From Microcoleus sp. LEGE 07076 (lineage in GTDB: Bacteria > Cyanobacteriota > Cyanobacteriia > Cyanobacteriales > Microcoleaceae): a DNA stretch of 53,437 nucleotides. Shown one piece after another: positions 36,127 to 46,147 of this stretch. The translations under genes were made by a program, and so were the position numbers. Within the stretch, counting starts at the first letter, position 1; every line of letters begins with the position of its first letter. The stretch covers positions 1 through 53,437 of the forward strand of contig NZ_JADEWV010000014.1 in assembly GCF_015207455.1 (NCBI RefSeq), in the 5' to 3' direction. The notes under the pieces are model-generated. The model was not told the DNA's origin. It did not search any database and saw only the letters and a list, made by a program, of their open reading frames with translations.

Positions 36127-38913
36127 TTATTTTCTGCCAACGAGCAAATAAGTTTTCATTGGTCCTTTTCCTTTAACATCAATAATTCCCCGCTCCTGAA
36201 ACAAATATTTCCCCTCCAATAACTTATAAGTAGTTTCGCTGACTTGAATCTGCCAAGACAAACCGTGAGATTCCATCCGAGAAGCAATATTTACCGTGTC
36301 CCCCCACAAATCATAAATAAACTTTTTAATCCCAATTACTCCCGCAACAACCGGGCCACTGTGGATGCCGACACGGATGCTAAAATATTTCCGATTCTCA
36401 GCATTAAACCCAGCTATTTCTGTTTGCATATCTAGGGCCATTTGGGCGATCGCCTCAGCGTGGTCAGCCCGGGGATTCGGCAGCCCTCCCGCCACCATGT
36501 ACGCATCGCCGATCGTCTTGATTTTCTCTAAGCCGTGCTGTTCGCACAACAGGTCGAATCTTGAGAAAATCTGATTGAGGAGTTCCACAAGCTCGATCGG
36601 ATTCATGTGAGCAGACAAAGGTGTAAACCCCACAATATCTGCAAACAAAACAGTCACTGCTGGAAAATATTCAGCAATAGTAGTTTCATCTTCCTTCAAG
36701 CGTTCTGCTATTGCCTTCGGCAAAATATTTAACAGCAGTTTTTCTGATTTTGCTTGTTCTTCTCGCAGTGCATTTTCTGCTTGCTTGCGTTCGGTAATAT
36801 CGTGATAACTCCAAACTCTGCCGATAATTTGGTCTCCCAGCCGCTGCGGTTCCGAATAGCGTTCAAAAAATCTACCATCTTGAAATTCCAACAAGTCAAA
36901 ACTTTCAGCTTCTGGCTGCTCGTAAAGCGATTCTATTCTGTCTTGGAATGCTTGCGGATCTTTGAGTTGGTTCAGCACAAAGGCGATCGCTGTAGCGTCG
37001 TCTCGCAGCGCCATCACTTCATTAGGTATGCCCCATATTTCCACAAATTCTCGATTGAAACTGACTATTTTTCCGCTCCTGTTAATCGCTAAAATACCGT
37101 CAGCAGTAGAATCAAACGTTGCTTGCAGCAAAGACACAGATTGTGCTAAAGCATCTTCCGCCATTTTGCGATCGGTAATGTCTCGCAAAATAGCGCGAAT
37201 CGCTACTAGCGAACCTTCCGCAAATTTACAGCTTATGCTGCCTTCGAGCAAAATTTGTTCGGAAGATTTCGTAATAAATATTACTTCGACCGAATCGGGA
37301 TAAAATGTATGTTCGTTGAAATCTTTTTTAGTAATAGCTTGATATAATATATCCAGAGAGTCTTGCGAACTGTTAGGATGAATGATATCAAAAACAGTCA
37401 TTTGAGCAATTTCTGCTTCGCTGTAGCCCAGAGTTTCCCGCCAAGCCCGATTTACATACAAAAAATGACCGTCGGCTCCAATACTTTGAATTAAATCAGT
37501 AGCATTTTCAAATAAATCTCGCAATTGTTCTTCGCTTTCCCGCAAAGCTATTTCGGCTTGCTTTCGCTTGATAAATTGACCGATTTGACTGCCGATTGTA
37601 GCCATTGTCTGGAGCAATTCTTCATCAGCATACCGCACTTTACAGCTAAATAAAGTCATCACCCCCAACACAGATTTATCCGAATTTTCCTGCTCGTAGT
37701 CGCCCAAAATGGGGAAGGCAAATGCTCCGTGCAGTCCTTCGGCGATAGCGATTTCTCGGCGCAGAAAATAGCCGCTTTCTGTGACATCTGCAATCCACTG
37801 AGGAGAACCGCTGGCCCAAGCGAGACCGGGCAATCCTTCACCTAACCCGCAGGTCATTTGTTCGCCAAATTCGGCAAATCTGGGGATAGAAACTGAGCCT
37901 TTTGTCCAACTGGCCGCGCACCTGAGCAAATTGGGGTCAGAAACCGCAGTTATTCTCTTACTTCCTGACACTAGTTTTTCTCCAGCTTCTGGCATCCAAA
38001 GTTCGACTGTATCCCATTCCAAGGTGTCGCAAATTACGGGTAAAATTGCTGTTAAAGCTTTTTTGATTGTTTCGGATGTAGACAGGATACGAGTGGTGAC
38101 GTACTGAGCTAATTTTCGCTTGCGGGCTCGTTCTCTATCTGTAATATCGCGGCCGATGTACACGAAATCTTGGAGGGCGGCTGTTGTTTCATAAATCCCT
38201 TGAATTTCACTCGAAATCGCCGTACAGGAAAAGGCAATTGTGAGATTTTCTCCGGTTTTTGCCGTGCAAACTACTTCGACATTGGTTTGAGAGGGTTGAG
38301 GTTGCTCTTGGCTGACTGCTTGCAAAGATTCACCCTCAGCAGCAATAGTGTCTATTTGCTGACCTACTAATTCTGATTCGCTGTAACCGAACAAATTTCG
38401 AGCAGCTTGATTGACTTTTTTGATCTTTCCCGATGCCGTTGTTACAAACAAAACTTCAGCCATTGAAGTAATAATCTTTTCAACATAATTATTAGTAGCG
38501 GCTAAGGTACTCAATAAAATATTCATTTCATTGGTAGCTTGAACTAGAGTTTGTTCCAAACCCATCCTGTCGGTTACATCTTCAAAAAATACAATTAATC
38601 TCTGAGCATTATCGTCATTGCTGAGTTCAACGATATACATATCAAAATAAAGCCGCGAGCCATTTTCTAATACCCGAGTTATCGCTTTTAATTCAAAGTT
38701 TGGCAACCGCCCTTCAAAAATATCGATTAAAATTTCTTCAGTTCCTATCAATTCTGGAAAGGGAGTGCGGACATCGTTGCCGGCCACTACCTCCTCGGCG
38801 CAGTCGCCAAAGCGCTGCACTTTGAGAGATGTTTCTTGGATTAAAAAGTCTCTATCCAGTGCTAGGTACTCCAAGTGGTGGGGAACCAACAGTTTTTTTA
38901 ACAGGGTTTTCAT
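36127..38913 (-). CDS. PAS-GAF-PAS class III adenylate cyclase
   Basis: A 928-residue soluble cyclase. Residues 1-130 are a divergent PAS-like module (with FPELIG) shared with the kinase at 39208. PAS domains start near 150, 465 and 590, with a GAF domain at about 290-450. The catalytic domain (about 735-925) keeps the metal aspartates Asp759 (FADIVGF) and Asp803 (TIGDAYMV). It also keeps the adenine-selecting Lys799 and Asp868 and the transition-state Asn/Arg (TVNIASRM), so it should make cAMP, not cGMP. One domain per chain means it must act as a homodimer. It lies 294 bp downstream of the GTPase-kinase operon on the same strand. Confidence 0.92.
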   Translation of the reverse strand: MKTLLKKLLVPHHLEYLALDRDFLIQETSLKVQRFGDCAEEVVAGNDVRTPFPELIGTEEILIDIFEGRLPNFELKAITRVLENGSRLYFDMYIVELSNDDNAQRLIVFFEDVTDRMGLEQTLVQATNEMNILLSTLAATNNYVEKIITSMAEVLFVTTASGKIKKVNQAARNLFGYSESELVGQQIDTIAAEGESLQAVSQEQPQPSQTNVEVVCTAKTGENLTIAFSCTAISSEIQGIYETTAALQDFVYIGRDITDRERARKRKLAQYVTTRILSTSETIKKALTAILPVICDTLEWDTVELWMPEAGEKLVSGSKRITAVSDPNLLRCAASWTKGSVSIPRFAEFGEQMTCGLGEGLPGLAWASGSPQWIADVTESGYFLRREIAIAEGLHGAFAFPILGDYEQENSDKSVLGVMTLFSCKVRYADEELLQTMATIGSQIGQFIKRKQAEIALRESEEQLRDLFENATDLIQSIGADGHFLYVNRAWRETLGYSEAEIAQMTVFDIIHPNSSQDSLDILYQAITKKDFNEHTFYPDSVEVIFITKSSEQILLEGSISCKFAEGSLVAIRAILRDITDRKMAEDALAQSVSLLQATFDSTADGILAINRSGKIVSFNREFVEIWGIPNEVMALRDDATAIAFVLNQLKDPQAFQDRIESLYEQPEAESFDLLEFQDGRFFERYSEPQRLGDQIIGRVWSYHDITERKQAENALREEQAKSEKLLLNILPKAIAERLKEDETTIAEYFPAVTVLFADIVGFTPLSAHMNPIELVELLNQIFSRFDLLCEQHGLEKIKTIGDAYMVAGGLPNPRADHAEAIAQMALDMQTEIAGFNAENRKYFSIRVGIHSGPVVAGVIGIKKFIYDLWGDTVNIASRMESHGLSWQIQVSETTYKLLEGKYLFQERGIIDVKGKGPMKTYLLVGRK

Positions 38914-39013: not shown

Positions 39014-39072
39014 GTTCGTAGTGCGGACTTTAGTCCGCTCTTGCGCTGCGGACTAAAGTCCGCACTACGAAC
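39014..39072. repeat. Perfect 25-bp inverted repeat
   Basis: 39014-39038 and 39048-39072 are exact reverse complements around a 9-nt loop. Each arm contains GCGGACTTTAGTCCGC or its mirror. Related units occur near 5595, 9327 and 45230-45275. It is an intergenic hairpin repeat between the PAS kinase and the cyclase and may work as a terminator. Confidence 0.9.
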
Positions 39073-39207: not shown

Positions 39208-40752
39208 CTATTTGTAAAATGGGATTGTGACTATAAAGGTAGTGCCTAATCCTGTCTCGCTGGAAAATTCGATTTGACCTCCGTGCAAGTCTACACACTG
39301 CTTGACTATGGATAAACCCAGTCCTGTTCCGGGTATTTTTCCGACATTTTGGGCTCGGTAATACGATTCAAATAGTTGTTCTTGGTCTTCTATCGGAATG
39401 CCAATGCCTGCGTCTTTAATTTTAAAGGTAGCTTTTTCATTATTACAGTTTAATTGAAAATAAATATTGCTGTCCACCGGCGAATATTTGACAGCATTAG
39501 AAAGCAAGTTTGTCAAGATGTGCCTGAGCAATTTTGGATCGAGCGCGGGCTGGTGTTGTGTTTTTTCCGAATCGCGATCGGGTTTTTTCGCGAGGGAAGT
39601 TGGTTTTCGGTAAATAAAGTTAATTTGATGATTTTTTCCGTAACTAATTTTAATTGATTCTACTAACTCGGTGCAAAAATTTTGTAAGTCAACTGGTGCG
39701 GGATTGAATTGGAGTTTTCCGGCTTCGGCGCTGCTGAGCAGCCGCACGTCGTCTAATAGCTGAGCCATGTGTTTAGATGCTGATTTGACGTGTCCGAGAT
39801 ATTCTTGTTTTTCAGCGTGGGTGATTTCGTCGCCGTATTCTTTGAGGATTTGAGTAGCAAATAATACGGTATTTAAAGGATTGCCGAACTCGTGAGCAAG
39901 CATTGAGAAAAAACGAGATTTTACTTGTCTGAGTTCTTGCTCTTTTGCCAAAGAACGGCGAATTTCTAGTTCTTGTTGCTTGCGTTCTGTGACATCTCTA
40001 CCGATATAGACAAAATCGTAAAGTCCCTCTAATTCTGTCTGAATTGCTGAACAGGAAAATTCTACCCAGATTTCTTCTCCGGCTTTTGTAGTGCAGACTA
40101 CTTCCAGTTCTCTGAGAAACTCTTTTTGAGACAAAATATAGCGGTGACGAGCTTGGTAAAGCAAGGTTTCTTCGACTACTATTTTGGAGAGCGGGTGGTC
40201 GATCAATTCTGCTTCGCTGTACCCAAATAGCCCTTGTGCCGATTGATTGACTGTTTTGATAATTCCTAATGTTGTTGTCACCAACAAAGCATCGCCCATC
40301 GAACGGATAACTTTATCTATATAATCTTTAGAAGCGGCTAAGGCGCTCACCAAAAGATTAGCTTCATTCGCTGTCTGAATCAAGGATTGCTTCATCACCA
40401 TTTTTTCGGTGGCGTCTTCAATCAAGATGAGCAAATTAATTGGCATATCTTGTTCTTTTTCATGTTCTACAGCCAACATATCGAAGTATAAAGGGCGGTT
40501 TTTGTCGGCAAACCGAGCGATACCTTTGAGTTCAAAACTCGGCCGCCGTCCCATCAATATCGACATCAGGATATTTTCAATGCCAATCAGTTCGGGAAAA
40601 CTGATGCGAGCATCTGCACCGGGGATCGCGTCGCTCGGGGTATCGGCATAGTGCTGCACTTCGGCGGAGATTTCCTGAATGATGAAATTGTGGTTTATTA
40701 CAAAATATTCTGTTTGTCGCGGGCCCAATAGCTTTCTAAAAAGGGGGTTCAT
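39208..40752 (-). CDS. PAS sensor histidine kinase, last gene of the GTPase operon
   Basis: A 514-residue soluble kinase. Residues 1-130 are a divergent PAS-like module (FPELIGIENILMSILMGR) paralogous to the start of the cyclase at 36127. A second PAS lies at about 140-260. HisKA follows with His287 in SMLAHEFGNPL, then a HATPase domain (about 390-513, with DAGIGIP and GTGLGLSIV). A stretch near 365-385 is charged and variable. Its ATG overlaps the GTPase stop codon by 4 bp (ATGA), so the two are translationally coupled and very probably work in one pathway. Confidence 0.92.
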   Translation of the reverse strand: MNPLFRKLLGPRQTEYFVINHNFIIQEISAEVQHYADTPSDAIPGADARISFPELIGIENILMSILMGRRPSFELKGIARFADKNRPLYFDMLAVEHEKEQDMPINLLILIEDATEKMVMKQSLIQTANEANLLVSALAASKDYIDKVIRSMGDALLVTTTLGIIKTVNQSAQGLFGYSEAELIDHPLSKIVVEETLLYQARHRYILSQKEFLRELEVVCTTKAGEEIWVEFSCSAIQTELEGLYDFVYIGRDVTERKQQELEIRRSLAKEQELRQVKSRFFSMLAHEFGNPLNTVLFATQILKEYGDEITHAEKQEYLGHVKSASKHMAQLLDDVRLLSSAEAGKLQFNPAPVDLQNFCTELVESIKISYGKNHQINFIYRKPTSLAKKPDRDSEKTQHQPALDPKLLRHILTNLLSNAVKYSPVDSNIYFQLNCNNEKATFKIKDAGIGIPIEDQEQLFESYYRAQNVGKIPGTGLGLSIVKQCVDLHGGQIEFSSETGLGTTFIVTIPFYK

Positions 40753-41285
40753 GCTTGTTCTACCATTGTGTAAGCGAGTTTGTGGAAGATTTGGTCAACG
40801 TCTTTGCCTGTTTTAGCAGATGTGGTGTAAACTGCTATTACTTTGTCTTGACCGAGCGCATGGGAAATTTCTACTAGCAGTGCCAATTTTTCTTCGTCTA
40901 TCAAGTCTACTTTGTTCAAAGCGATGATAATTGACCCTTTGGGATTGACTGAAGAAAAAAGTTTGATGTGTTCGGAGATTCGCTCAACTGTTTCGGTGCG
41001 GCTGACATCGGCAACGATTAAAACGCCGCTAGCTCCCTGCAAGTAAGTCGGTGCGATTCCTTTGAATTTTGTATGGCCTTCTAAGTCCCAAATCAGCAAC
41101 TGTGCAGTGACGTTTTCTCGCTCTTTGATGCCTTCTAATTCTAGGCTTTTGCGGGAAATTTTGACTCCGACAGTGGATAGGTACTCGTCGCTGAATTGCC
41201 GATCGACAAAACGGCGGATTAGGCTAGTTTTGCCTACACCAAAATCGCCGATCATGCACATTTTTTTAGATATAGTAACTGCCAT
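40749..41285 (-). CDS. Ras-like small GTPase
   Basis: A 178-residue Rab/Ras-type GTP-binding protein. All nucleotide motifs are present: P-loop GDFGVGKTS (13-21), switch I Thr38, DLEGH (67-71), NKVD (124-127) and TSAK (155-158). His71 replaces the catalytic Gln of Ras, suggesting slow intrinsic hydrolysis and reliance on a partner. There is no lipidation signal at the C-terminus (YTMVEQA), so membrane recruitment would need another protein. The neighbouring membrane OmpA-like protein, 2 bp upstream, is the prime candidate. It overlaps the PAS kinase gene downstream. Prokaryotic relatives such as MglA control polarity and motility. Confidence 0.93.
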   Translation of the reverse strand: MAVTISKKMCMIGDFGVGKTSLIRRFVDRQFSDEYLSTVGVKISRKSLELEGIKERENVTAQLLIWDLEGHTKFKGIAPTYLQGASGVLIVADVSRTETVERISEHIKLFSSVNPKGSIIIALNKVDLIDEEKLALLVEISHALGQDKVIAVYTTSAKTGKDVDQIFHKLAYTMVEQA

Positions 41286-41287
41286 AA

Positions 41288-44104
41288 TTATTTGCTGTTT
41301 ATGCTCTTAGTTATTGGTTCAAATAGTACGCATCTGCTTAAAACTAGCGGCTGATTGGGTTCCACGCCGTCGGGAGGAATTGAGCTGGCAACCGCTTGGA
41401 GGCGCTTGGGGTCAGCACCTTGCTGCACCAAAGCATCTTGCACTGTAGCGGCACGCCTGAGCGACAATCGTTGATTGGTGGCAAGATCCCCAGTTCCATC
41501 GCTGTGCCCAATTATCTTAATATGTTTTTGAGGATATCGATCCATGAATTTTTTGACACTGGCGATGATTTCTGCTGATGTTGAGTCTAATTTTGTCGTT
41601 CCAGGGTCAAAGTAGATGCGGCTTGGAATTGTGAGCGGATCTAGTTTAACAGTGCTGATGACGGACTGAACGCCGGGAATTTGCTTCAGGGATTGGGCAA
41701 TTTTCTGCGAGTCGGCAGTGTCGGTGACTGTGCCCTCTACTGTAACTTTGCGATCGCCATACCGACTAGAAATATAAACGCCCTGCATCTGGTTCAAAAC
41801 AGCGGTAATCCGCTGTACTTCTCCCGCCGTCAAAACTGGGTCTGGAGGTACATCTACAGCGATAATTTGATTGTCTAATTTCAGATTTGGTAGAGTTGAT
41901 GCAGCTATTTTTTCAGCTTTTGCCCGCAATTCTGGATTTGGCAATTTTCCGGTTAATTTGAGAGTGTTGCCTTCAACGTCGGCGTTTAAGCGGTAAACTG
42001 CTAATTCTGGGGTCGATGCTAAAGCTAAAGCGACATTTGTTACCAGGGGGCGGTCGATGCTGCGGCGGTACTGATACATTCCCCAAGGTATTAAGATTAA
42101 GCTGAGGGCGACTAAACTGATCCCGGCTAGGGCGATCGGAGGTTTGGTGGATTTTTCCTTTTCCAGTGGGTCGAATAAAGTTTTGATAAACGGGTGCAGC
42201 GAATCGGGTATAGTATCGGGGTCGCCGTTAAATTCGTGAATTAATTTAGCGTAGTTAAGGATGAGATTACTAAGTGTTTTCCGCATTTTTTTGATGAACG
42301 AGTCTGGCGGTTCTCCTTTAATTACGATTGCCATGTAGCAGTATCCCGCTACTTCTAGCAAAATTTTTGAGTCGCCGTATTCAATTTGATTGAGTTCGGA
42401 AATTTCTCCCGGCACAACGATGCACTCGTTCACAAAGCTGCGAATAGCTGTGAGCATTCCTGCTACCATTTCTGATTCTAACTGGTAGCTTTCGGAGTTT
42501 TGAACTTCGGAAATCACTAAGCCTGATGCTTTGTGAATTAAGAAGGCTGCTTGGATGGAAAAGGGTACTGATTCTTGGAGGATTAATTCGGCTTCGGAGA
42601 CTCCTTGTACTTTGGAGCGAATTTTGCGCCTAACTCCTTCCACGCTCATGGCATTTGACACTTTTTCATTGATTGTCTTGATTGCTTCTGCCATGTATCT
42701 GGAAATAGTGTTGCCAATTACTGGATAGAGGGCATCTACCATTGCGTCTCGTTCGAGTTCTATTTGGGCTGTAATCGCTTTGCCCATTTCTGGGGCGAGG
42801 GCTTGGGCGATCGACTCTTTGTCGAGGCGAATTTGCTCTTTAATTGCCATGCCGATTTCTGGGGCGATCGCCTTAGCAATATCTTGTGGCGAATTTTCTA
42901 TTTGTTGAGAAAGTGCGTCGGGGAGTAGCTCAGCGATTGCTGAACTCATTGCCGACTTGTTTTCCACGGTTTTTGCTCTAATTACTTCGTCAATAATTGG
43001 CCCGATCGCCTGCACGACTTCTTCTCGGGAATCGGTAATTTTGCGGCTGAGAATTTGTGCGATCCAAGGCAGCATCAGCGCGATCAGCTCTTGGGGATCG
43101 TAGATTTGGTGTTCGAGTTTTCCTAATTTATCGTTGATAGTTACCATCAGTTGGCGCACACCTGGCAAGTCGTTTTGCGCCAGGAGGTTTTTCACTTGCT
43201 CGATATCCGACATTTGCGAGCCAAAAATCAGAGTTTGCAGCCTTTCCATCGCGCTGTCGGCTTCATTTAAGTCTTGTTTAATTTCGCCTAATATTTCTGA
43301 GCGCTGCGATATCGGTGTCGGCTGTTCTGGCACTTCTGGCATCGATTGCAGCTTGTGAACTACCGCATCTAAATATATTTTTTCCGAAGGCGCAGGAATT
43401 GTGGGAACTGCGGCATTTGGCTCATTTGCTGCGGGCGGTTGCAGATTTGGGCGATCGGACAAATTCTCTAAAGCGGTGTCGAAATCTTGGAATTTTTCCG
43501 CCTGTACTTTCTGCGGAAAATCTGATATTGTCAAGTCAGGCGATTCTCTCTCAAAATCGGAAACATCGGCAGAAATATCTATAGTTTTAGCTGAGGAATA
43601 GTTTCTTTCTAGTTCTGAGCTTTTGAGTTTGTGAGTATCGAACAGCCAACTTTTGGAATCGCCTGAAACAGCCGGCGACTGTGTAGATTTTGGTTGTTGA
43701 GAGCCAGTTTTTGGCGGAGCGATCGGTGCAGTTTCCTCTGGCTCTTGCAAATCTGAAATACCTAACAAATCCATCAACCCGCCCAGGGCTTCGGCTTGAC
43801 CTTTTTTGTTGATTATGTCAGCTTCGGAATCTGGGTTTTGCGGCGGTGCAATTTCGTTTGGGTCTTGCTCAGAAATACCTAACAAATCCATCAACCCGCC
43901 GGGGGTCCCAGCTCGATCGTTGCTGCTGCTGTCACTTTCGGACTCAGCATTTTGCTGGTTTGAACCAGCTAAAATTTTGAGTTCGACTAACAGATTCAGC
44001 AAGGGTTCTAGCTGGGTTGCGGCCGAGGCCGCGGACTCGTCAGGTTGAGAAACAAAACCCTCTAGCTGATTTTCATCTGCTGGATTTTCTTTCGGTAAAG
44101 CCAT
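41288..44104 (-). CDS. Membrane OmpA-like protein with large cytoplasmic region and BON-like repeats
   Basis: A 938-residue protein. Residues 1-280 are low-complexity and acidic and contain GGLMDLLGIS twice (about 70 and 112). Residues 280-510 are helical, with repeated AP-E-G-AI units. Residues about 515-645 (FLIHKASGLVISEVQN, then EMVAGMLTAIRSFV) form an alpha/beta domain that may be roadblock/longin-like. One membrane helix (about 652-672) is followed by two BON-like segments and a C-terminal OmpA peptidoglycan-binding domain (IYFDPGTTKLDS, then IGHSDGTGDLATNQRLSLRR). The cytoplasmic half would face the GTPase and the C-terminus the cell wall. It lies 2 bp from the GTPase gene and 6 bp from the coiled-coil gene. 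Confidence 0.85.
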   Translation of the reverse strand: MALPKENPADENQLEGFVSQPDESAASAATQLEPLLNLLVELKILAGSNQQNAESESDSSSNDRAGTPGGLMDLLGISEQDPNEIAPPQNPDSEADIINKKGQAEALGGLMDLLGISDLQEPEETAPIAPPKTGSQQPKSTQSPAVSGDSKSWLFDTHKLKSSELERNYSSAKTIDISADVSDFERESPDLTISDFPQKVQAEKFQDFDTALENLSDRPNLQPPAANEPNAAVPTIPAPSEKIYLDAVVHKLQSMPEVPEQPTPISQRSEILGEIKQDLNEADSAMERLQTLIFGSQMSDIEQVKNLLAQNDLPGVRQLMVTINDKLGKLEHQIYDPQELIALMLPWIAQILSRKITDSREEVVQAIGPIIDEVIRAKTVENKSAMSSAIAELLPDALSQQIENSPQDIAKAIAPEIGMAIKEQIRLDKESIAQALAPEMGKAITAQIELERDAMVDALYPVIGNTISRYMAEAIKTINEKVSNAMSVEGVRRKIRSKVQGVSEAELILQESVPFSIQAAFLIHKASGLVISEVQNSESYQLESEMVAGMLTAIRSFVNECIVVPGEISELNQIEYGDSKILLEVAGYCYMAIVIKGEPPDSFIKKMRKTLSNLILNYAKLIHEFNGDPDTIPDSLHPFIKTLFDPLEKEKSTKPPIALAGISLVALSLILIPWGMYQYRRSIDRPLVTNVALALASTPELAVYRLNADVEGNTLKLTGKLPNPELRAKAEKIAASTLPNLKLDNQIIAVDVPPDPVLTAGEVQRITAVLNQMQGVYISSRYGDRKVTVEGTVTDTADSQKIAQSLKQIPGVQSVISTVKLDPLTIPSRIYFDPGTTKLDSTSAEIIASVKKFMDRYPQKHIKIIGHSDGTGDLATNQRLSLRRAATVQDALVQQGADPKRLQAVASSIPPDGVEPNQPLVLSRCVLFEPITKSINSK

Positions 44105-44110
44105 GCGTTA

Positions 44111-44719
44111 TTATCCGTGGTGGTGGCGCTCCGGCAACAGAAATTCGTTATTTAACTTATTGTCAGTAACGCCTTTTAGTTCGGGGACAAATTCTGTTCC
44201 TTTGAGCCTCATACCGAGTTCAAACAGAATTTCTGCCATGTCGTCTCTGGAAACTTTAACATCTCGGAGCATGGAAAAGCGCCGATCGAGTTCTTCAAAA
44301 ACTTGTGTTTTCAGAGTGCGGGTTTCTTCGGAGAGTCGCTCTCGGGTTTGGGAGAGTTCGTCGCGAATCGAACTGGTTTGATTGTCGATCGCCTCGTCGA
44401 GTGATTCTATGCTGCTGGAGAATTTCCGGTTAACGCGATCGATTTGCTGGCGGAGATCGGCACTTTCTTCTTGCGTGTTTGAGGTTAGGGATTTAACTTT
44501 CTTTTCAAACGAATCAACTGCTACCTTGACTTCGGCTGACAGAACTGCTTTTATCTGTTCGATGCGACTTTGCACATCTTGCTGCATCATTGACAGTTCA
44601 GAATCTATTTTATCAAAACGATTGTCGTATTCTCTAAGCTGCGCCCCGAAAATTATATCTCGAATCTGGTCGATATTTCCCAGCCGTTCGCGCATTTCTT
44701 CTTTAGTTATTTCTGCCAT
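44111..44719 (-). CDS. Coiled-coil protein, first gene of the GTPase operon
   Basis: A 202-residue acidic, almost entirely helical protein. Residues 30-150 are a continuous coiled coil (SEEVRTLK-type heptads, for example LSQTRERLSEETRTLKTQVF). The N-terminal motif IRDIIFGAQLREYDNRF recalls LQTLIFGSQMSDIEQV in the OmpA-like partner. The C-terminus is globular (MAEILFELGMRLKGTEF) and ends in HHHG. There is no signal peptide or membrane helix. The ATG lies 6 bp ahead of the OmpA-like gene. It is probably a scaffold or length-spacer for the GTPase module; no function is established. Confidence 0.8.
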   Translation of the reverse strand: MAEITKEEMRERLGNIDQIRDIIFGAQLREYDNRFDKIDSELSMMQQDVQSRIEQIKAVLSAEVKVAVDSFEKKVKSLTSNTQEESADLRQQIDRVNRKFSSSIESLDEAIDNQTSSIRDELSQTRERLSEETRTLKTQVFEELDRRFSMLRDVKVSRDDMAEILFELGMRLKGTEFVPELKGVTDNKLNNEFLLPERHHHG

Positions 44720-46147
44720 GCTTGTACCTCGAATCTCCCTAAATTGTAAGTTTTGGAACTGTGTTGAATTTTTTGTTAAACTACCTGTCGAGCATTTTAA
44801 GTAGGCTCAAAAGACGTGCCGGGGGCTTTTTCTGCGGTGATTTACCGCAACAGTTGGCTGAACTGCCTTTTTTTGAGTTGGCAGAACTTTATTGCTTGAA
44901 ACTCTCACCCCTGCGTCGGGGAGGGGATTTTTTAGAGTTTTGACTCTTTTATATCCTGAGATTCAAATTCTTGGGGCGGGTTCTGTGGCCCAAAATGGCG
45001 GTTTGCTATTCTTGTTTTGCAGCAAGCTCCTCAAGCTTAGACTTTCCTGCTATACAGGGGGGTAGGTTTTAATGTCTTGTCTTGACTTTTCAATGATATC
45101 CCATCTTTGAGAGCGCCTAATGCCGGGGCATCTAGGTCACGGCAAAAAAAGGGGCGGACGTGATCGCACCGGTGCAAATATCTATAATATCCTGTCTCGT
45201 CGATTCACAACGATAAAATTGGTTCGCGCGTGCGGACTTTAGTCCGCAACCAGGAGCCGACTTTAGTCCGCACACGAACTGTTTTTGTTACGATGACCGG
45301 ACGTGATACGATCTGTGGCTCGAAAGATCCAACTCGGCGGTTAAAATCAGGTCTGCACAAACGGGAGCATCTGGTGTTTTGTAGTTGAGCGTGTTTCGAT
45401 CGCGGATTGTGCAACTCGCGAGCTCGCGACAGCTCGCACGCTCAATAAAAAAATTCTTTTTGCAAAACACAGATGCTCCCTGCACAAACTTTCCTCCGCA
45501 TCCGCAGACTGAAGAATAGACATCGAACTTTCTCCCCGTCTCCCTCTGAAAAAGCGTAGGGCCCGATCGACAGCGATCGGACCCAATAATATGAGAGTTT
45601 TGTTTTTTCTAACAAACGGGATGTGTTTCCGGTAAAGAACAATTACTTACTAGGGTTGACAGTTTGTGCAACTTTACTTTTAATCCGCAAGCACAATAAG
45701 TCTGACTCGACTGCGGTTTGGCTTGACTGCCCGATCGGCAGTTTTGCCACTATTCCAAGTTGTGTTAGGTTAATTTCGGCTGCGCTGGGGAATCTAGACC
45801 GGAGACACCATGCCTATATCCTTGAAGTTTGCTTCTAAATATGGCGACCTCCTGTTTCTTTCTGTTCCGGTGTCTATTATTTAACTTAGCACGAGCTTTC
45901 GCAGGAGTAAAGCACTACTTGCAAAACTTGATTTGTCTTTACATTACTAAGTATAATGATATTAATATCCACATAGATGTAAGTTAGGACTCATGCACTC
46001 GCCCGCAAAGAAACAGGTTTTTTTTACCGGGATTGAGGATTTACCAACCGTGTATTTTGGTAGAAAAACTCGATTTCTCGACAGGGATGCGTCTAGGACT
46101 ATAAATTCTATTGTTGCTACATCTTCACATACTTAACAGTTTTTGTC
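44720..46147. other. Long intergenic region upstream of alaS
   Basis: About 1.4 kb between divergent genes. It holds a GCGGACTTTAGTCCGC-type repeat pair (45230-45275), a partly mirrored segment with AGCATCTG near 45369 and CAGATGCT near 45470, and a hairpin at 45559-45584. All open frames are short and lack family signatures or ribosome sites. Promoters for alaS (+) and for the GTPase operon (-) must lie at its ends. A small RNA cannot be excluded. Confidence 0.45.
45559..45584. terminator. Strong hairpin in the region upstream of alaS
   Basis: GGGCCCGATCG (45559-45569) and CGATCGGACCC (45574-45584) pair with one mismatch around ACAG. A T-rich stretch follows about 15 bp later. It could terminate an unseen transcript. 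Confidence 0.4.

Follow-up and report, generated by a model that had tools for sequence, protein, structure and literature searches.

A Group 1 Rup-type GTPase unit of Microcoleus sp. LEGE 07076 with a predicted longin-fold, wall-anchored partner and exchangeable PAS-headed outputs

What does a Ras-like GTPase do in a bacterial operon that also encodes a cell-wall-anchored membrane protein and a histidine kinase? The question is raised by a 53,437-nucleotide stretch of Microcoleus sp. LEGE 07076 DNA (contig NZ_JADEWV010000014.1, positions 1 to 53,437; hereafter the window), in which four minus-strand genes occupy positions 44719-39208. Their open reading frame (ORF) coordinates agree with an initial annotation made from the sequence alone: the genes are separated by spacers of 6 bp and 2 bp and then by a 4-bp overlap. 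In gene order they encode a small companion protein of 202 aa (44111..44719), a 938-aa protein with a predicted longin fold and an OmpA domain (41288..44104), a Ras/Rab-like small GTPase of 178 aa (40749..41285), and a 514-aa histidine kinase (39208..40752). By its sequence features the unit matches a Group 1 Rup system, a layout already in print as a predicted system with the same four-gene set (Wuichet and Søgaard-Andersen, 2014; PMC4316618), an identity that the initial annotation missed. We propose, with a probability of about one half, that in this unit a wall-tethered longin domain controls the GTPase, and that the GTPase switches exchangeable outputs headed by a PAS domain.

The GTPase matches Pfam Ras (E 2.4e-28), and its G1-G5 residues (G13, G18-K19-T20, T38, D67/G70, N124-K125/D127, and S156-A157-K158) are invariant in 19 sequences. 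Nearly all of the best 60 of 716 PDB sequence matches carry the names Rab, Sec4 or Ypt. The unit shares with the Group 1 Rup systems described in the main text of PMC4316618 a GTPase with Ras motifs but no conserved Gln in G3, a putative coiled-coil neighbour, a second neighbour in which a conserved domain is followed by a membrane helix and an OmpA domain, and an output protein whose N-terminal region carries an invariant Gln. According to that text, Group 1 Rup proteins are very similar to Rab, Ran, Ras and Rho and occur in Bacteroidetes, Chloroflexi, Cyanobacteria and gamma-Proteobacteria, and as of 2014 no Rup protein had been experimentally characterised (PMC4316618). The same paper lists Nostoc punctiforme as having a Group 1 Rup gene that is transcribed. 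The G3 motif of the window GTPase is WDLEGH, with His at the Gln position, as annotated. For comparison, we collected 80 loci, the best 80 of 556 confirmed by GTPase similarity (at least 589 stretches matched) and mostly cyanobacterial by label, among which this position holds H in 30, S in 25, Q in 8, R in 5, N in 4, K in 3, G in 3, and A in 2. Because the residue varies in this way, we rejected His as a meaningful catalytic substitution. The C-terminus of the window GTPase contains no Cys, in keeping with the annotated lack of a lipid anchor, so that judged by a C-terminal Cys it has no prenylation signal of the eukaryotic Rab type; a Cys falls within the last four residues of only 2 of the 80 homologues.

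The domain ahead of the membrane helix is of unknown function in the main text of PMC4316618; a longin fold is predicted for it here. We modelled residues 436-655 of the 938-aa protein with AlphaFold2, using an alignment with 66 homologues. The model as a whole has a mean pLDDT of 71.2 and a pTM of 0.62, with low confidence in the helices ahead of the domain (residues 436-500), while the domain itself (model residues 81-210, protein residues 516-645, window 42170..42559) scores mostly 83-92, falling to 72 at model residues 121-140. Its elements (E81-89, E95-100, H109-127, E138-141, E144-151, E154-161, H166-188, and H199-209) follow the order b-b-a-b-b-b-a-a, with a third helix after the core, which is the longin order. 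Most of the best 50 Foldseek rows (E 4e-4 to 3e-3) belong to longin, roadblock, TRAPP, Ragulator and adaptor chains. VIA-align placed first the TRAPP chain 2j3t_D (which we take to be Trs23; Z 12.8, 2.9 A, 125 residues), and further longins were VAMP7 (Z 12.2), Sec22b (12.0), Fuzzy (11.6) and the TRAPP chain 3cue_C (presumably Bet5; 11.4). The best roadblock chain scored Z 11.0 over 103 residues and MglB 10.7. Longins and roadblocks are thus close in Z in these model comparisons, but longins aligned over more residues, their alignments extending to about model residue 213. In the part of PMC10933270 that bears on this, longins are described as lacking the N-terminal helix of roadblocks, an extra C-terminal helix taking its place. 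The model carries the longin-type C-terminal helix at high confidence; the helix ahead of the core has a pLDDT of about 53-64 and is not part of the stretches that aligned with roadblock chains. We therefore predict a roadblock/longin-type fold for residues 516-645, somewhat nearer to longin, in line with the initial guess of such a fold.

Sequence gives weak support in the same direction as the model. A paralogue elsewhere in the genome matches Pfam Fuz_longin_1 with 24.5 bits (E 3.5e-5), under the 26.1 cut-off, and 4 of 32 domain sequences match this family at E <= 1. We file the modelled domain as a longin fold and not as a member of the Pfam longin sequence families. A partner of the MglB type in this genome was tried as a candidate and rejected, since Robl_LC7 found no match here; the control search with the same profile matched 3 of 14 genomes.

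On either side of this domain the protein is built as the initial annotation had described it, with a long N-terminal half, one membrane helix and an OmpA domain. From the N-terminus it comprises a variable region, a helical region, the longin-fold domain, the membrane helix, BON domains, and the OmpA domain, and its middle part is the best-conserved section. Residues 320-500 (42605..43147) form a conserved region in 67 sequences and are helical where modelled. The lone hydrophobic segment, with its KD19 maximum at residue 657, follows about 656 residues and precedes the OmpA part; hydropathy places the helix at residues 657-675 (42080..42136), where all 67 aligned proteins, the window protein included, have a hydrophobic segment. 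BON domains, which the annotation did not mention, form two stretches, the better match covering residues 686-738 (41891..42049; PF04972, E 2.1e-10). The OmpA domain spans residues 831-906 (41387..41614; PF00691, E 2.7e-15) and has Arg884 in 66 of 67 rows and Asp869 in 50 of 67, residues that we presume, from their role in other OmpA domains, to be linked to peptidoglycan binding. The variable N-terminal part contains GGLMDLLGIS twice (residues 69-78 and 108-117; window 43754-43900), possibly a binding motif.

The kinase begins with a module of its own, hereafter the receiver. Pfam found PAS, HisKA and HATPase_c in the kinase; ahead of them, residues 1-142 (40327..40752), modelled by AlphaFold2 with 60 relatives at a mean pLDDT of 86.3, form a predicted PAS fold followed by a long helix, with photoactive yellow protein as the best structural match (Z 10.7). 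The same module heads a second gene, which encodes a class III adenylate/guanylate cyclase of 928 aa (36127..38913, minus strand; Pfam Guanylate_cyc, E 3.6e-67) and lies 294 bp downstream of the kinase gene on the same strand, as a putative second output. The receiver of the cyclase (38913-38488) is identical to that of the kinase at 61 of 141 residues and matches the receiver profile at E 1.0e-53, the cyclase row being among the sequences from which the profile was built. Across 81 receiver-headed ORFs, the part behind the receiver was a HATPase in 24 (one cut at a contig end), a HATPase with a response-regulator domain in 21, a class III cyclase in 20, GGDEF in 5 (one cut) and a sigma-54 activator in 2 (one cut); nothing was found in 9 (two cut), among them one, at locus L147, with a kinase ATP-binding motif. 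These classes were assigned by BLAST to one example domain each, with Pfam run on 10 outputs, of which one (L108) had no catalytic domain by Pfam. Short receiver ORFs with no catalytic part found (L081:4850, L083:7334, L105:4230, L116, and L125:6152) are possibly decaying outputs or frameshifts. The main text of PMC4316618 gives histidine kinases or diguanylate cyclase/phosphodiesterase fusions as typical Group 1 Rup outputs, whereas here class III cyclases and a sigma-54 activator type join them. As a model, the annotated readout by a PAS kinase agrees with these data, though it covers one kind of output among several.

The remaining protein, encoded by the first gene, is probably a cytosolic coiled coil. 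Its only family matches are below threshold and largely to coiled-coil families, and such matches can come from composition; apart from them, its size and position agree among loci. It has one match in its own genome, and hydropathy found no membrane segment in it, in the GTPase or in the kinase.

Is this arrangement kept elsewhere? Counting as just beside anything within 1,500 bp, and the small protein anywhere upstream in the locus, the longin/OmpA protein stands just upstream of the GTPase in 66 of the 80 loci (4 are cut by a contig end), a receiver-headed output just downstream in 59 (2 cut), and a homologue of the small protein upstream in 54 (absent from 11, 15 cut). All four parts occur in order in 40 loci. 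In two sets of loci, one of 40 and one of these 80, none of the matched ORFs was a fusion of the GTPase with the longin domain or with an output. We also searched 291 genomes of the window's class, which we infer to be Cyanobacteriia. Of these, 67 contained the GTPase, 66 the longin protein and 56 the output receiver; GTPase and longin protein were found together in 64 of the 69 genomes with either, the GTPase alone in 3 and the longin protein alone in 2, and GTPase and receiver together in 49. Among the 67 is a sister group of lower similarity, mostly at 34-42% identity. Each of the six sister loci that we read (L062, L063, L064, L065, L067 and L069) carries its own longin protein, with OmpA confirmed in L062 and L065; in the kinase adjoining the L062 GTPase only HATPase_c was matched, and the receiver was not.

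Seven of the 80 loci come from metagenome-assembled genomes with non-cyanobacterial labels, namely Campylobacterales (2), Helicobacteraceae, Campylobacteraceae, Chlorobi, Bacteroidetes and Anaerolineae. We searched 251 genomes of the phylum to which the Anaerolineae genome belongs; the GTPase (E <= 1e-20) occurs in 15 of them and the longin protein in 12, all 12 being among the 15 (Fisher 5e-18, although genome relatedness makes such p-values overconfident). Of the three GTPase genomes with no longin match, two have weak GTPase matches (E about 1e-24). Seven neighbourhoods from this phylum all hold the four parts, five in the order GTPase, small protein, longin protein, output and two in the order small protein, longin protein, GTPase, output. 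They cover 7 of the 12 longin genomes, with coordinates alone for 5; locus L148 is the second of one genome, and in one of those 5 (G441) the GTPase and longin genes lie on separate contigs. Because all four parts stay together in two gene orders, the set as judged from these sequences outlived rearrangement, and because the arrangement is kept in other genomes and phyla, it exceeds chance. In the Anaerolineae locus L148 the longin protein gave no OmpA match (one protein scanned), only a sub-threshold SH3_3, so that the longin domain seems to be kept more steadily than the wall anchor. The initial interpretation stands in part: a conserved four-gene neighbourhood and a predicted roadblock/longin-type fold were found, so that neither the lack of such a neighbourhood nor that of such a fold, each named at the outset as a refuting outcome, came about, while the outputs proved wider than kinases and the His not conserved. 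An eighth such label, Candidatus Gracilibacteria (L112), stands on a locus that looks cyanobacterial in type, with a GTPase at 56% identity, and may be a binning error. In locus L090 there are two GTPase copies, one after the longin protein with a kinase and one adjoining a class III cyclase.

Starting from the parts, their linkage and their predicted folds, we infer the rest of the mechanism as follows. The longin side of the 938-aa protein would face the cytosol, and the OmpA/BON part would hold peptidoglycan. The longin domain, probably a dimer formed through the preceding helical region, would dock the GTPase and set its nucleotide state, by analogy with the longin/roadblock dimers of TRAPP, Mon1-Ccz1 and MglA-MglB; that such dimers set GTPase state is reported in PMC10933270 and PMC3521125. 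When bound to GTP, the GTPase would engage the receivers and move the signalling helix of each, and would thereby switch the histidine kinase, the cyclase and also a diguanylate cyclase whose gene lies elsewhere in the genome. A single GTPase tethered at the envelope could in this way act on phosphotransfer, a cyclic mononucleotide and c-di-GMP.

That the same receiver module is found ahead of kinases, hybrid kinases, class III cyclases, GGDEF proteins and sigma-54 activators argues for this control scheme, as do the gene order and spacing, the co-occurrence of GTPase and longin protein in two phyla, the predicted longin fold, the make-up of the window's own genome, and the match to the published four-gene set. 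Several observations weigh on the other side. Longin domains can also act as effectors or adaptors. The longin sequence of the window failed to match any longin profile. Run as profiles against PDB sequences, the longin alignments gave nothing significant: one search listed no longin, and in another the best longin row, Bet5 (E 0.4), ranked below unrelated rows at E 0.2. The parts are also not always together: 18 of the 67 GTPase genomes have no receiver match, 7 genomes have a receiver match and 2 a longin match with no GTPase, and in the 80 loci, despite room, the output is absent beside the GTPase in 19 and the longin/OmpA protein in 10.

The most serious competitor, which we regard as possible though doubtful, runs the signal in the opposite direction: the PAS-headed proteins would be the sensors, and the output would be the GTPase, seated on the wall-anchored longin protein and with effects on envelope position or assembly (polarity, pili, gliding or septum). 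Such a flow has been proposed for the conservons of actinobacteria. PAS domains often sense, and the receiver is predicted to have this fold. In the conservon model as given in part of PMC13343842, the kinase stands upstream and signals to the GTPase through a GAP and/or GEF, and in the main text of PMC4316618 the GTPase is posited as the conservon output. The exchangeable catalytic parts behind the receiver, several of them second-messenger makers or transcription activators, are nevertheless easier to read as output, and Pfam found no motility gene among the five genes.

It is less probable still, and in our judgement unlikely, that the near-invariant receiver Gln acts in trans as the catalytic residue of a Gln-less GTPase, the longin domain serving only as an anchor or effector, an idea speculated upon in section 18 of the 2014 paper (PMC4316618). 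The residue concerned is Gln126, which we infer to be the invariant Gln of that paper's logo. Of the 80 rows with a residue at this place, 79 have Gln; the G3 position of the GTPase is variable. Gln126 is located in the long helix after the PAS domain, however, together with the near-invariant Gln122, Asn129 and Glu130, a pattern expected of a coiled-coil core or a binding stripe, and it is kept in the 4 outputs found where the GTPase has its own Gln (8 loci, 4 with no output found; a small sample). Since Gln126 sits in this modelled helix, we consider a role in a coiled coil or in binding no less likely than trans-catalysis.

A dedicated gliding or polarity switch of filamentous cyanobacteria, as first suggested for this locus, is improbable. 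Microcoleus, Pseudanabaena and Nostoc each contribute several loci, and MglA-MglB provides a precedent for motility control by a GTPase. Judged by the lifestyles of the genera, the cyanobacterial loci of Xenococcus, Pleurocapsa, Hyella and the unicellular cyanobacterium SU3 do not suit such a switch, nor do those of Campylobacterales, Chlorobi and Anaerolineae, and the Pfam result on motility genes counts here as well. That the four genes share transcription merely for convenience and their proteins do not interact is very unlikely, given co-occurrence in two phyla, rearranged yet intact sets, and a common receiver on unrelated catalytic parts.

How, then, does the unit compare with known systems? 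The actinobacterial conservons (AGPS) likewise place a small GTPase, a roadblock-type protein and a histidine kinase in a conserved four-gene operon (PMC13343842 and PMC4316618, in the parts concerned). There, however, the GTPase belongs to the MglA family and is accompanied by a free Roadblock protein, CvnB, and by CvnC, whereas here the GTPase is Rab-like by its best sequence matches, the roadblock/longin element has the longin-type order and is fused to membrane and wall domains, and the kinase has no membrane segment; no CvnB-type roadblock protein was found beside the GTPase by Robl_LC7. MglA-MglB also combines a bacterial Ras-like GTPase with a roadblock/longin-type protein, but MglB is a free Roadblock protein, while our model confidently includes the extra helix after the core. 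Eukaryotic Rab GTPases with their longin regulators (TRAPP core, Mon1-Ccz1 and Fuzzy-Inturned) share the Rab-like GTPase and the longin fold, and TRAPP, VAMP7, Sec22b and Fuzzy longins gave the highest VIA-align rows; the bacterial GTPase differs in lacking a prenylation signal, and its longin protein in spanning the membrane and carrying an OmpA domain.

Four points go beyond the published Group 1 Rup description: a longin fold predicted for the middle domain, a PAS fold predicted for the receiver, outputs of the class III cyclase and sigma-54 types, and complete but rearranged sets in a further phylum. None of them was met in the open-licence literature searched (supplements excluded). Among the papers listed from the same literature, none had an experiment on a Group 1 Rup system, and the phrases tried for a bacterial longin brought up no paper. 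Against novelty, parts of three sources speak of related matters: 'Longin/Roadblock' is listed jointly as present in Bacteria (PMC4917890), the longin is derived from prokaryotic roadblock domains (PMC3521125), and longin/roadblock families are called archaeal in origin (PMC10933270). If the operon partner is a longin, the pairing behind eukaryotic Rab control becomes open to study in bacteria, with the partner named by the operon, and the unit points to a way in which a single GTPase might act on three kinds of enzyme, a kinase, a class III cyclase and a diguanylate cyclase, by means of the same exchangeable receiver; this idea is biochemically testable. Bacterial Rup GTPases are placed next to Rab, Ras, Rho and Ran (PMC4316618); they are the prokaryotic group closest to these, although phylogeny could not resolve the relationship (PMC4915359), and the small GTPase genes of the archaeon MK-D1 are generally not in operons with longin genes (PMC10933270), as far as the relevant parts of these papers go. 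It is a long shot, but the Rab-longin partnership of TRAPP and Mon1-Ccz1 might be no eukaryotic or Asgard invention and instead an older bacterial envelope-signalling module, possibly contributed together with Rup GTPases.

Within its own genome the unit has further parts. The genome holds one GTPase, one small protein, two longin-OmpA proteins, and three receiver-headed outputs, the latter number alongside a single GTPase being a further difference from the 2014 description. The only other GTPase match is weak and partial (28% identity, E 2e-4), inside a 639-aa frame. The second longin-BON-OmpA protein (1202 aa; L152:4943-8551, contig 144) has no GTPase of the same kind beside it, and a second longin match also occurs in both other searched genomes of the genus. 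The third receiver-headed output is a 701-aa GGDEF protein, a lone diguanylate cyclase (L153:9510-11615, contig 464). Given these numbers, three output enzymes and two wall anchors could share one GTPase.

The end of the unit at 39208 is not certain. Because the same-strand cyclase begins with the N-terminal module of the kinase, the unit may be longer and include the cyclase gene; in the 8 closest loci with both genes, the gap between them measures 48-57 bp in four cases and 166-806 bp in the other four. A scan found 16 promoter-like sites against 15.6 expected and 8 terminator-like sites against 13.3 expected, and we claim no transcript ends. The palindrome GCGGACTAAAGTCCGC flanks the unit in three exact copies and one with a mismatch (39023-39063 and 45232-45271), one pair sitting between the kinase and cyclase genes. 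With 19 exact matches in the genome, against 0 for a reversed control pattern, it appears to be a dispersed repeat.

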